NCBI RefSeq assembly: GCF_008326305.1 | Contig: NZ_BIXY01000064.1 | Coordinates: 1-41,154, forward strand | Source: Dictyobacter arantiisoli | GTDB taxonomy: Bacteria; Chloroflexota; Ktedonobacteria; Ktedonobacterales; Ktedonobacteraceae | Length of the DNA stretch: 41,154 bases | Reading direction: 5' to 3' | Part shown: positions 16,027 through 21,800 of the stretch, in pieces | Position numbering within the stretch: the first letter of the stretch is position 1 | Layout: every line of letters begins with the position of its first letter | Position numbers and translations under genes: made by a program | The notes under the pieces: generated by a model | The model's database searches: none | Told to the model about the DNA's origin: nothing | The model's input: only the letters and a program-made list of their open reading frames with translations

Positions 16027-17526
16027 TCAGGGTTGGGTCCAGGAATTTGAGCCTGTATCGGTCTGCTGACCATTCTGACTAAAGGTAAACGAGTAGGTGC
16101 CACCCTGGCCTGAACCTATGCTGCTGGCCGTGTATTCCCAGCGCGAGGAGCCCGAGTTATATGTCATCTGGACATTCTGCTGCCCTAGATTCGGGTCAGT
16201 ATAGTGCACGATGACATAATCGGCTGACCAGCCATTGGGCTGGAACCAGAACAGCGTTTGCCCTCCACCGGAGGTATCCGCGCCCTGATTGTATCCCGGA
16301 CCCGACGAGGATGAACTGGCGGAAACAACCGGTGGCGGTGGTGCGCTGCCACTTCCCTGTGTCCAGGAATTTGAGCCTGTATCGGTCTGCTGACCATTCT
16401 GACTAAAGGTAAACGAGTAGGTGCCACCCTGGCCTGAATCTATGCCGCTGGCTGTATACTCCCAGCGCGAGGTGCTCGAGTTATATGTCATCTGAACGTT
16501 CTGCTGCCCCAGATTCGGGTCAGTATAGTGCACGATGACATAATCGGCTGACCAGCCATTGGGCTGGAACCAGAACAGCGTTTGCGTTGAACTGGGAGTA
16601 TCCGTACCCTGGTTAAATCCCGAGCTACTTGCTGACGATGGCGGTAAAGCAGGCGGAGTGGTCGGTACTGGTACTCGTACTGGTACTGGTATTGGTGCTG
16701 GAGGTGAAGCTCCATTAGCGGGTCCAAATGTTATAGCATAGTTCGCATTAGTATCGGTAAACGTACTGGTTGCATCGTCGTAGGCGTAGCTATATGCATT
16801 GGGACATTGGCTCTTGAAGTAGGCCGCATAATTAACGGGCCAGGTTGTAGGATTGCAGGCTGCTCCAACGTAAGGTCCCTCACAGCAATATTGGTCCGTG
16901 CCAAAGACCTCGCAGGCGCTTTTGCAGCCAACGATGCGTCCACTGGCATCCGTATCCTGTAAGGCTGCCGGGCAGTTGGGATTCAAATCGGTTCCACAGC
17001 CTGCAACGCCGCACCTGTATGGATTGTTAGGATCAGGCTGTGCGCCGCCGACCGGCGTGATTGTCATCGGGACGTTAAAGCCATCAACATGACTGACATC
17101 ATAGAAATCATTACCGCCCCACCCGCTGAGCGTAAACTCCGCCAGCGTCTGAGGTCCTACGCCAGTGGCACCGTTGCACTGGAGCACTGTGCCACAACTT
17201 CCTGTCTCACAGTTTCCCGTGCCGCTCGCGTCGAACGAGCAATAGGTGCGCCCCCAGAATCGTCCCTGCCAGTTATCGGCAACCGTCAGCGAATAGGTTG
17301 AGCCGGGATCCATGACCCAGCCACCATTGGCAGGCGTAGCAAAGCCTGCATTGGGTGCAGCCGCAGCCCAGATGGTTTCTGACGTGTTGTTCGTAAATGT
17401 GATGGTATGCCCACTCGGTGGCGTCGGTGAATCAGCATGGGCTGGTATGAGACTGACAATGAGAAAAGTAGCGATAGTTGTCAGAACTACTATTAATAGT
17501 GATAGTATCTTGCCTGGTTTTTTCAT
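16027..17526 (-). CDS. Secreted thaumatin-like protein with two beta-glucan-binding-type repeats
   Basis: The protein has a signal peptide (about 1-31, ending PAHA) and a thaumatin domain (about 38-268). This is followed by a Pro-rich linker and two copies of a roughly 85-residue module. Thaumatin signatures include ITFTNNTSETIW, FWGRTYC, CETGSCG, LAEFTL and FYDVSHVDGFNVPM, with many cysteines. Plant and fungal relatives (GH152) bind or cut beta-1,3-glucan and inhibit fungi. Each C-terminal module (FWFQPNGWSADYVIVHYT... ending QQTDTGSNSWTQ) resembles the CBM56/X25 domains of bacterial beta-1,3-glucanases. Their DNA is nearly identical, with a period of 324 bases. AAGGAG (17534-17539) lies 7 bases before the ATG. 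A role against fungal walls is inferred. The linker is rich in PVPVRVPVP. Confidence 0.85.
   Translation of the reverse strand: MKKPGKILSLLIVVLTTIATFLIVSLIPAHADSPTPPSGHTITFTNNTSETIWAAAAPNAGFATPANGGWVMDPGSTYSLTVADNWQGRFWGRTYCSFDASGTGNCETGSCGTVLQCNGATGVGPQTLAEFTLSGWGGNDFYDVSHVDGFNVPMTITPVGGAQPDPNNPYRCGVAGCGTDLNPNCPAALQDTDASGRIVGCKSACEVFGTDQYCCEGPYVGAACNPTTWPVNYAAYFKSQCPNAYSYAYDDATSTFTDTNANYAITFGPANGASPPAPIPVPVRVPVPTTPPALPPSSASSSGFNQGTDTPSSTQTLFWFQPNGWSADYVIVHYTDPNLGQQNVQMTYNSSTSRWEYTASGIDSGQGGTYSFTFSQNGQQTDTGSNSWTQGSGSAPPPPVVSASSSSSGPGYNQGADTSGGGQTLFWFQPNGWSADYVIVHYTDPNLGQQNVQMTYNSGSSRWEYTASSIGSGQGGTYSFTFSQNGQQTDTGSNSWTQP
16037..16600. repeat. 324-bp direct repeat coding the two glucan-binding modules
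   Basis: The stretch beginning gtccaggaatttgagcctg occurs at 16037 and again at 16361, and similarity continues for roughly 240 bases with few differences. The second unit includes the linker GSGSAPPPP. It reflects a recent in-frame duplication. Confidence 0.8.
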
Positions 17527-18389: not shown

Positions 18390-18418
18390 TTGACAATCTT
18401 TTTACGAAGGTTTGTAAA
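18390..18418 (+). promoter_or_regulatory. Candidate promoter of the FAAL-PKS-NRPS operon
   Basis: A perfect TTGACA (18390-18395) is followed by 17 bases and TGTAAA (4 of 6 matches to TATAAT). It points into the biosynthetic block and would place the large inverted repeat inside the transcript leader. Confidence 0.35.
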
Positions 18419-18426
18419 TGAACAGC

Positions 18427-18630
18427 AAAAATGTTCACAAAGTGTTTGATTCCCATAGTCTTCGCCATCCTGGTGCATGAGTTTTCGCACCGATGGTGCT
18501 CAAACCCTTTTTTATGGTATGTTGCTGTAAATGTGCATAGCACATTTACAGCAACATACCATAAAAAAGGGCGCAGGTGAGCAGCAAGATCCCGCTGGGA
18601 GTGGGAATCAAACACTCTCTCAACATTTTT
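18427..18630. repeat. Nested inverted repeat with perfect 32-bp inner arms
   Basis: The inner palindrome has 32-base arms (18505-18536 and 18540-18571) that pair without error around the loop ATA. Outer arms of 29 bases (18427-18455 and 18602-18630) share aaaaatgtt and agtgtttgattccca, separated by five variable bases. The sequences between inner and outer arms also look related: both sides can be read as FDSHS(Q/L)R... followed by KPFLWYVAV or RPFLWYVAV. The structure is two head-to-head copies of one sequence, and the copies have diverged. It may be a fold-back mobile element or a structured leader of the biosynthetic operon. Confidence 0.85.
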
Positions 18631-18691
18631 ATTGGTTTTCTACGGCAATATACAATACAACTGTTTTTACAAGGTATTATTTTTCCATAAT

Positions 18692-18710
18692 TTACAGTGA
18701 CTGTACAGTC
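18692..18710. promoter_or_regulatory. Overlapping operator-like palindromes before the FAAL gene
   Basis: TACAGT-G-ACTGTA (18693-18705) and the perfect 12-bp palindrome GACTGTACAGTC (18699-18710) overlap, giving three TACAGT half-sites in 19 bases. The cluster lies about 50 bases before the likely start of the first biosynthetic protein. It is a plausible repressor site. No regulator gene is in the window. Confidence 0.4.
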
Positions 18711-18856
18711 TTAATAATCCACCTTGTACAACGAACATTGAACTCTATTTAAGTGGGGTACTGAGTACGAATATTCAAAAACCAAATCATTCTAGGGCTG
18801 ATTTTGTTGATTTACTCAGTTGGCGAGCCGAACATCAGCCTGACCAACAAGCATAT

Positions 18857-21800
18857 ATGTTTCTTACAGATGGCGAATTTCGTGAAAAGTCTTTGACCTA
18901 TGCAGAACTCCATCAGCAAGCTTGTTATATAGGCTCATTCCTTCAAGACAAAATACAACCTGGGGATCGAGTTTTACTCCTGTATCCCCCAGGTGGGCAA
19001 TATATAGCGGCAATTTTTGGCTGTTTCTATGCAGGGGCAATTGCAATCCCAGCCTATCCGCCAAAAATGAACCATAATCTGGAACGGATTGAGGCAATCT
19101 TACACGATGCACAGATAACGGTTGCTCTGACAACTCAGCCGATCCTCACGTCTCTTCGAAACAAATTCGCCGATCATGACTCTGTCCAAAACATACGTTG
19201 GATAGCGACAGATGAGCAAGAACAGCAAGCTAGCGAGCAAGATTGGAAAAGGCCAAAGATCACAAATGAAACTGTCGCTATGTTGCAATATACCTCTGGC
19301 TCTACCGGATCTCCTAAAGGGGTCATCGTTACCCATAATAATCTTATCCATAACGCTGCTTTCATTCAGAAAGGGATGAGGTTAAGATCTGATAGTTCAC
19401 TGGTAAGCTGGTTGCCTCCTTATCATGACATGGGATTAATGGGCGGAATATTGGAAGCTGTGTATCTAGGAGTTCCAATTACATTTATGCCTCCAGCAGC
19501 CTTTTTGCAACAACCTCTGCGTTGGTTACGCGCCATTTCTCGCTACCACGCTAAGGTAAGCGGAGCGCCTAACTTCGCCTTTGATCTGTGTGTGAATAAA
19601 GCTACACCTGAAAACATTGCAGAGTTAGATTTGAGTAGTTGGGAACTTGCTTTTTCCGGGGCCGAACCTATCCGACAGCAAACTCTTGAACGTTTCGCTC
19701 GTACATTTGCTCCATGTGGATTCCGTCCCGAAGCTTTCTATCCCTGTTATGGTCTTGCAGAGGCGACACTTTTTGCAGCGGGTAGCTTTCAAACTAATCC
19801 GGCACAGCGACATTACTTTGATGCATCAGCTATCGAGCAGGGACAAGTCATCGTACTTACAGCTGAAAGTGCTCAGAGCCGTTCGCTGGTAAGTAGCGGT
19901 TATACGACAGAGGGGCAAAAGATTGAAATTGTCGATCCAGAACATCTGACCAGGTGCGCCCCCAATCAGATTGGAGAAATTTGGCTGGCCGGACCCAATA
20001 TTGCTCAAGGCTACTGGAACAAACCCTTAGAAACAATGCAGACATTCCAGGGATATTTGAAGGGAAGTCACGAAGGTCCCTTTCTAAGGACTGGAGATCT
20101 AGGCTTCTCATTACAAGGGGAACTCTTTATTACAGGCCGCCTCAAAGATGTGATTATTATCCGTGGGCGCAATCTCTACCCACAAGATATTGAGGCTGTC
20201 GTTGAGAGTAGTCATCCTGCGCTACGCCAGAATTGCTGTGCTGCATTCTCATTGAGTGATGAACAAGGCGAACGCTTGATAATTACGCAAGAGATCGAAC
20301 GCCATCATCAGGGCTGGGAAAAAGCCGCTATTATTCAGGCCATACGCCAAAAGGTTACTGCTGAATTCGACATTGAAGTTGCGAGTATTGTGCTTCTGCG
20401 AGCTGGGACGATCCTTAAAACGACAAGCGGTAAAATTCAACGCAGTGCCTGTCGTCAGAGTTTTCTCGCTGAGAACCTGAATATTGTGTATCAATGGGAC
20501 CACAAAACAGCGCCATTAGAACCTGTCCAGTTACCTGATGCGAGTCAACCCATAGATGAAAGAAAATTAGCATCACTTCCCCTTTTTCTCCCCAACCAGG
20601 CATCTTCCAGTACACAAACAATCGTGAACTGGATCAGGATGCAGATCGCTCAACGCACACACCTTGATCCCAGGGACATTGATCCTTCTGCTCCATTCGT
20701 CAACTATGGACTCGATTCTGTCGCCGCCGTTAGCCTCTCAGGTGATTTAGAGCAATGGCTCCAACGCTCGCTCTCACCAACCCTCATCTATGACTATCCT
20801 TCTATCGATACACTTGCCCACTATCTTGCTAATCCAACATCTCACAAAGAACAACCACAAAAAGACGATACAGCATCTGTCTATACACATCAAACACAAT
20901 CAATAGAAACAGATGCTATCGCGATCATAGGCTTCGCCTGCCGCTTTCCTCAAGCACTCAATGCAGAGGCTTTCTGGCAGCTACTCCATGATGGAGTGGA
21001 TGCAATTTCAGAAGTTCCCGATGATCGCTGGTCACTTGATACGTGGTATCAGGCTGGTCCAACAGTTCAGAACAAGATGAATACGCGTTGGGGTGGCTTT
21101 CTCCATGACGTGGATCAGTTCGATCCTACATTCTTTGAAATCGCTCCTCGCGAAGCGGCAAAGATGGATCCTCAACAACGACTCCTCCTGGAGATTGCCT
21201 GGGAAACTTTTGAACACGCTGCAATCGCTCCCGATACATTGGCTGGGAGCCAGACTGGAGTCTTCATTGGAATCAGCAGCAATGATTACTTACTTTTACA
21301 GCAGCAAAACTCAACGCTCGACGCATATGTTGGTACAGGCAATGCTCATAGTATCGCAGCCAATCGGCTCTCTTACGCCTTTGATCTACGCGGTCCAAGC
21401 ATGGCTGTGGATAGTGCCTGTTCCTCTTCTTTGCTTGCCCTGCATCAAGCTTGTCAAAGTATACGCGCTGGCGAATGCTCATTAGCACTTGCAGGTGGCG
21501 TGAATTTACTCCTGACGCCGGAACCAACACTCACCTTCTCCCAGGCCCATATGATGTCTCCTGATGGACATTGCAAAACTTTTGATGAAACAGCTGATGG
21601 CTATGTCAGAGGTGAGGGCTGTGGTCTCGTTTTACTTAAACCTTTAGCCGCTGCACAACGGGATGGTGATCGCGTTTTCGCATTGATTCGCGGGTCAGCG
21701 ACAAATCAGGATGGTGCCAGCAATGGGCTCACAGCACCAAATGGTCCGGCTCAGGAAATGGTGATCCGTCAGGCGCTCATCAATGCAAATATACACCCGG

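Follow-up and report, generated by a model that had tools for sequence, protein, structure and literature searches.

Prokaryotic MITEs such as Correia/NEMIS, RUP and QMITE2 are non-coding elements shorter than 500 bp that carry terminal inverted repeats (TIRs) and target duplications, lie between genes, fold stably and share their ends with an insertion sequence (IS), and the element described here is like them in all of these respects (PMC10969869, PMC2229807; we follow the MITE definitions of these two papers). Inverted repeats can also be reshaped by template switching during replication, the signature of which is homogenisation of the arms with inversion of the spacer (PMC8604942), and the same process has been proposed as a source of compensatory changes in RNA stems (PMC8794818). 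The central hairpin of our element resembles such cases of quasipalindrome correction in both arm homogenisation and spacer inversion (PMC8604942, PMC8794818). The likeness of the element as a whole to an IS5-family IS (DUF4096 + DDE_Tnp_1) extends to ends of 17-19 nt, a 3-bp duplication and end-to-end tandem junctions with 3 bp between.

The element lies in the window, by which we mean the whole stretch of 41,154 nucleotides from Dictyobacter arantiisoli that was analysed. Taken together, the feature is very probably a non-autonomous IS5-type MITE, one that is probably moved in trans by an IS and whose hairpin is likely kept perfect by template switching.

Structure and dispersal of the element

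Aligning the window copy with its relatives in the genome resolved it into the following parts.

18438-18619, plus strand: whole MITE copy, 182 bp, aligned to 48-65 copies in the genome and with its ends mapped
18435-18437, no strand: left target-site duplication TCA, identical to 18620-18622
18620-18622, no strand: right target-site duplication TCA, identical to 18435-18437
18438-18456, plus strand: left TIR, CAAAGTGTTTGATTCCCAT, from genome match counts; the ends match an IS5-family IS in the same genome
18601-18619, minus strand: right TIR, from arm pairing, genome matches and end mapping
18482-18502, plus strand: conserved core hairpin, TTTTCGCACC-GAT-GGTGCTCA, from core counts and from genus genomes against reversed controls
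18505-18571, plus strand: central perfect hairpin, arms 18505-18536 and 18540-18571, loop ATA; arm homogenisation and loop flipping are family-wide
18572-18584, plus strand: what is left of the GC-rich second hairpin; by alignment, full-length copies have about 21 bp more

The first-pass annotation of this DNA had described perfect 32-bp arms around a 3-nt loop, framed by imperfect 29-bp arms. Both are present, and the outer arms (89.7% over 29 nt) are the TIRs of the element. The sequences between them had been read as two diverged head-to-head copies of one unit, a reading that the alignment does not bear out: the left flank of the big hairpin is the conserved core hairpin and the right flank is the remnant of the GC-rich hairpin, which the 203-bp copies retain, and because the flanks are different modules in all aligned copies they are not copies of each other. 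The order of modules in the family is left TIR, variable linker, core hairpin (TTTTCGCACC-NNN-GGTGCTCA), long central hairpin, GC-rich hairpin, linker and right TIR, and of these the core hairpin is the most conserved across the genus. The modal length is 203 bp among 48 aligned copies; the window copy measures 182 bp because about 21 bp of the GC-rich second hairpin have been lost. Both lengths lie below the approximately 500 bp of a MITE, and the element has TIRs of about 19 nt and no transposase gene. The element region folds with a z-score of -13, and none of 200 shuffles folds as well, while a search of Rfam returned microRNA-shaped chance matches alone, none of which reached gathering scores.

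Searching the genome with the window stretch returned 40+ long matches at approximately 70-90% identity. The core hairpin, with at most one mismatch, occurs 219 times in the 7.2-Mb genome of D. arantiisoli and 107 times in D. aurantiacus, and 13, 2 and 1 times in three other members of the genus, with none for the reversed controls. The exact core hairpin is found in none of the other 42 genomes of the order among the 47 examined, which restricts it to the genus, and among GTDB genome contigs the exact core pattern matched in D. aurantiacus only. A 15-nt core of the left TIR, with at most two mismatches, gave 217 genomic matches compared to 3 for its reversed control. Further copies in the host genome, which the first-pass annotation had proposed to look for, therefore number more than 200. 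D. aurantiacus copies share their layout and length (204 bp) with those of D. arantiisoli and differ in the sequence of the central hairpin.

Copy statistics were drawn from fetched stretches holding 117 core-bearing D. arantiisoli copies, 65 of them with both ends mapped. By crude ORF calls, 87 of 98 copies lie outside ORFs of at least 130 aa and the other 11 lie in short ORFs that are largely repeat-derived; the intergenic settings, by the same crude calls, comprise 27 convergent, 25 sense, 14 divergent and 13 antisense. The copies are thus many, dispersed and mainly intergenic. Shortened versions of approximately 105-135 bp, lacking the core hairpin, the central hairpin or both and keeping both TIRs, were also seen (L154 1128-1247, L165 1135-1241, L157 561-666 and a minus-strand copy at L042 181-307).

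Flanking duplications, which were also to be looked for, are present as TCA on both sides of the window copy, and they are in excess across the family. Left and right 3-bp flanks are equal in 34 of 65 D. arantiisoli copies, where 8.1 are expected (maximum of 19 in 10,000 shuffles), and in 9 of 19 D. aurantiacus copies, where 2.0 are expected (maximum of 8). Moving the flank windows by a single base makes this equality fall sharply. The family prefers the target C-TNA-G, and some copies stand end to end, exactly 3 bp apart. The copies with unequal flanks, about half, may be older or recombined ones, for which such flanks are expected. In the one neighbourhood compared, four relatives lack the element next to the orthologous gene, and their synteny differs as well; homologues of the FAAL operon in relatives are at best 56% identical, too distant for an empty-site comparison.

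The probable partner insertion sequence

The MITE terminal repeats match the ends of an IS5-family IS over 17-19 bp. In a further member of the genus (G004) this IS is intact and 1077 bp long (L177/L186), with two transposase frames, ends GAATGTGTCTGACTCCCAT and a target-site duplication of TTA or TTT. A D. aurantiacus (G003) protein shares 68% identity with the N-terminal frame of this IS, and the two parts of that protein match PF13340 (DUF4096, E 4e-29) and PF01609 (DDE_Tnp_1, E 3e-16), placing the partner among the IS4/5-type DDE families.

Using the G004 transposase as the query, we found the IS in D. arantiisoli as well. Six contigs end in an identical 102-nt stretch that encodes the transposase C-terminus (65% identity over 34 aa) and is followed by ATGGGAATCAAACACTATC or ATGGGAATCAAACACTCTC / ACTCTC, and three contigs begin with the N-terminal end of the IS in reverse complement (MRRSQHRVAMTGKRPAY..), bearing the left end GATAGTGTTTGATTCCCATCA. 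The IS ends at these contig ends equal the ends of MITE copies, so that ends common to an autonomous element occur both in the G004 IS and in the genome of D. arantiisoli itself. What the D. arantiisoli assembly holds of the IS is its two ends, at nine contig ends, and not its full body; most likely the IS is multi-copy in this genome and was collapsed by the assembly. Since the IS is broken at contig ends, DDE_Tnp_1 and DUF4096 matches across the whole assembly included none with MITE-like ends, and the widely spaced TIR pairs inspected for a partner were further MITEs alone. A D. aurantiacus IS with ends GAGAGTGTCAGAGTTGCG (L058, L176) was considered as the partner and rejected; although it is related, its ends agree with the usual MITE ends for about 13 nt and then diverge.

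By size, TIRs, target-site duplication, dispersal and IS-shared ends, the element is a MITE. Because its ends and duplication length are shared with the IS, the MITE is probably mobilised in trans by the IS5-type transposase (DUF4096 + DDE_Tnp_1), whose own IS has identical ends in this genome.

Several further observations concern the neighbourhood of these repeats. The draft assembly breaks within the IS5-family IS or the MITE central hairpin at the ends of contigs C24, C40 and C7, which bear the left end of the IS, of contigs C91, C148, C13, C5, C38 and C48, which bear its right end, and also of C81, C96, C113, C89, C110, C36, C4 and C12, and the MITE and IS repeats explain the breaks at these sites. 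At L058 1501-2735 (G003) the right end of a MITE copy has the sequence of the terminal repeat of an adjoining IS5-type element, with TTA between the two, possibly a recombinant end. A second small repeat (L006 1398-1494, L031 1652-1748, L007 1403-1498 and others), mostly 92-97 bp long, has the ends GCTCGACTTTGTACA..TGTACAAAGTCGAGC, is flanked by TNA-like duplications of 3 bp and often directly adjoins the first MITE; a 1469-bp element of D. aurantiacus (L145 1742-3210) has the same ends as this second repeat and encodes a 448-aa transposase-like protein.

Homogenisation of the central hairpin

The first-pass annotation had suggested ongoing conversion between the hairpin arms, and this is borne out and can be quantified across copies. 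Across 94 D. arantiisoli copies, the two arms of one copy mismatch at 1.26% of positions (0.0126 per site), compared to 38% (0.378) for arms of different copies; the figures for D. aurantiacus are 1.2% and 43%. The TIR arms, which lie about 160 bp from each other, show no such homogenisation, with a mismatch of 0.234 within and 0.297 between copies. In copy pairs that diverge by less than 6% elsewhere, both arms have changed at 39 stem positions and a single arm at 3, counts that are not independent events as copies share ancestry, and many close pairs differ by an isolated single mirrored change, transversions included. The loop occurs in both orientations (ATA 12 and TAT 8, GAA 15 and TTC 11, ACA 9 and TGT 4 in D. 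arantiisoli copies), even in the closest pair, which is 97% identical outside the hairpin.

Perfect arms might simply reflect youth, each copy having recently been made from a source with perfect arms, and some copies are indeed more than 95% identical outside the hairpin. However, the median divergence from the nearest neighbour outside the hairpin is 8.1% against an arm mismatch of 1.5%, in the same copies the terminal repeats show 23% mismatch, and both loop orientations are present among the closest pairs. Youth is therefore a very improbable explanation of the perfect arms.

Another explanation is selection on a transcribed RNA, such as an attenuator, an RNase III site or an mRNA stabiliser, in which case the compensatory changes would reflect RNA pairing. 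The fold is very stable, transcripts of other bacterial MITEs have been proposed as RNase III targets (PMC2229807), and copies between co-oriented genes show a weak bias toward sense (25 against 13 antisense). Yet RNA pairing would predict an excess of G-T over A-C among residual arm mismatches, and the 19 that we observed, a small number, comprise 4 G-T, 5 A-C and 10 others. In addition, close copies differ by mirrored transversions, for which there is no wobble intermediate, loops are found in either orientation, copies sit between genes of all orientations, and the terminal stems are not kept paired. We thus regard RNA selection as quite improbable, and the hairpin data fit replication template switching better.

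Homogenised arms together with an inverted spacer are what template switching is expected to leave, and it is the simplest agent for the conversion between arms and likely the actual one. The central hairpin would stay perfect because the nascent strand, while the near-palindrome is being replicated, switches to the other half as its template; a mutation arising in either arm would thereby be copied into its partner, and the switch would sometimes flip the loop.

Alternatively, whole hairpins could be exchanged between copies by ectopic gene conversion, with no switching inside the hairpin. Copies have clearly exchanged modules and terminal repeats, and some close pairs show 5-9 mirrored differences, but many others carry 1-3 isolated mirrored changes whose positions differ, and exchange alone does not invert loops. 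As a substitute for template switching such exchange is rather unlikely, although it probably also contributes to the double changes.

It is tempting to ask whether the central hairpin is itself maintained as a functional DNA hairpin or cruciform, with arms free in sequence but kept perfect. Such a structure may serve, for example, as a substrate for the transposase or for replication-coupled excision. We consider this improbable, but if it were true the family would represent a class of MITE with hairpin homogenisation inside its life cycle.

The FAAL-PKS locus and comparison with known systems

As the first-pass annotation had stated, a FAAL gene lies just downstream of the element; it encodes a fatty acyl-AMP ligase-type AMP-binding domain fused to a PKS and is divergent from a thaumatin-like gene. 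The latter (window 16027-17526, minus strand) adjoins the operon and encodes a thaumatin-family protein with CBM56 carbohydrate-binding modules. The N-terminal FAAL sequence, ADFVDLLSWRAEHQPDQQAY (window 18701-18857), looks conserved and extends in frame beyond the 5' side of 18857, where the first ATG/GTG/TTG stands; the open frame there is without a standard start codon, and a rare start codon or a frameshift are candidate readings.

The first-pass annotation had also placed a TTGACA promoter just upstream of the element and proposed the element as a structural attenuator of the operon. The element does sit 5' of the operon, and a stem of 32 bp could stall RNA polymerase or ribosomes or bar their passage. 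The TTGACA hexamer is present at 18390, but it has no acceptable -10 after it and is absent from the list of our promoter scan, in which the sole sense-strand promoter-like site (18691-18718) falls downstream of the element; promoter and terminator scans at the locus both gave matches no more frequent than chance or shuffled expectation. The big stem is not followed by a T run and so differs from an intrinsic terminator, which combines a GC-rich stem with a U tract, and the sole terminator-like match is a weak 5-pair stem at 18463-18475, of which about 0.6 are expected by chance. An element with more than 200 copies, found in all gene orientations, is generic rather than specific to one operon, and the TCA duplications mark it as an insertion. 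An attenuator specific to the FAAL-PKS operon is thus extremely unlikely. Our default reading is a passive insertion, with effects on the operon possible: the MITE would have inserted between the thaumatin-like gene and the FAAL-PKS operon, creating the 3-bp TCA duplication. The other role once suggested, a fold-back mobile element, was right as to mobility, given the many copies, 3-bp duplications and IS-shared termini, but the fold-back, head-to-head pair gives way to an IS5-type MITE. In this way an apparent operon attenuator becomes an annotated mobile family.

The family is new among MITEs, and its data on hairpin homogenisation are unusually clear; the literature searched on repeats in Dictyobacter and Ktedonobacter yielded no description of it. 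BOX, ERIC and REP repeats are likewise dispersed, structured, intergenic and modular. The likeness to them is one of general features, and what sets the Dictyobacter family apart is its defined TIRs, its 3-bp duplications and its partner of the IS5 type. Compared to the IS5-family ISs, the MITE is without a transposase and has little in common with them beyond the terminal repeats. Among MITEs, it differs from Correia/NEMIS, RUP and QMITE2 in being a new sequence family, seen in Dictyobacter only, and in its multi-hairpin interior with a central perfect hairpin, co-varying arms and an inverting loop. Since a change in either arm turns up again in its partner, the family is a natural laboratory for arm homogenisation, and its many natural copies of one hairpin form an unusually large data set for weighing RNA-stem selection against DNA template switching. 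In contrast to the described cases of quasipalindrome correction, a single mobile hairpin here repeats the process in dozens to hundreds of copies within a bacterial genome.
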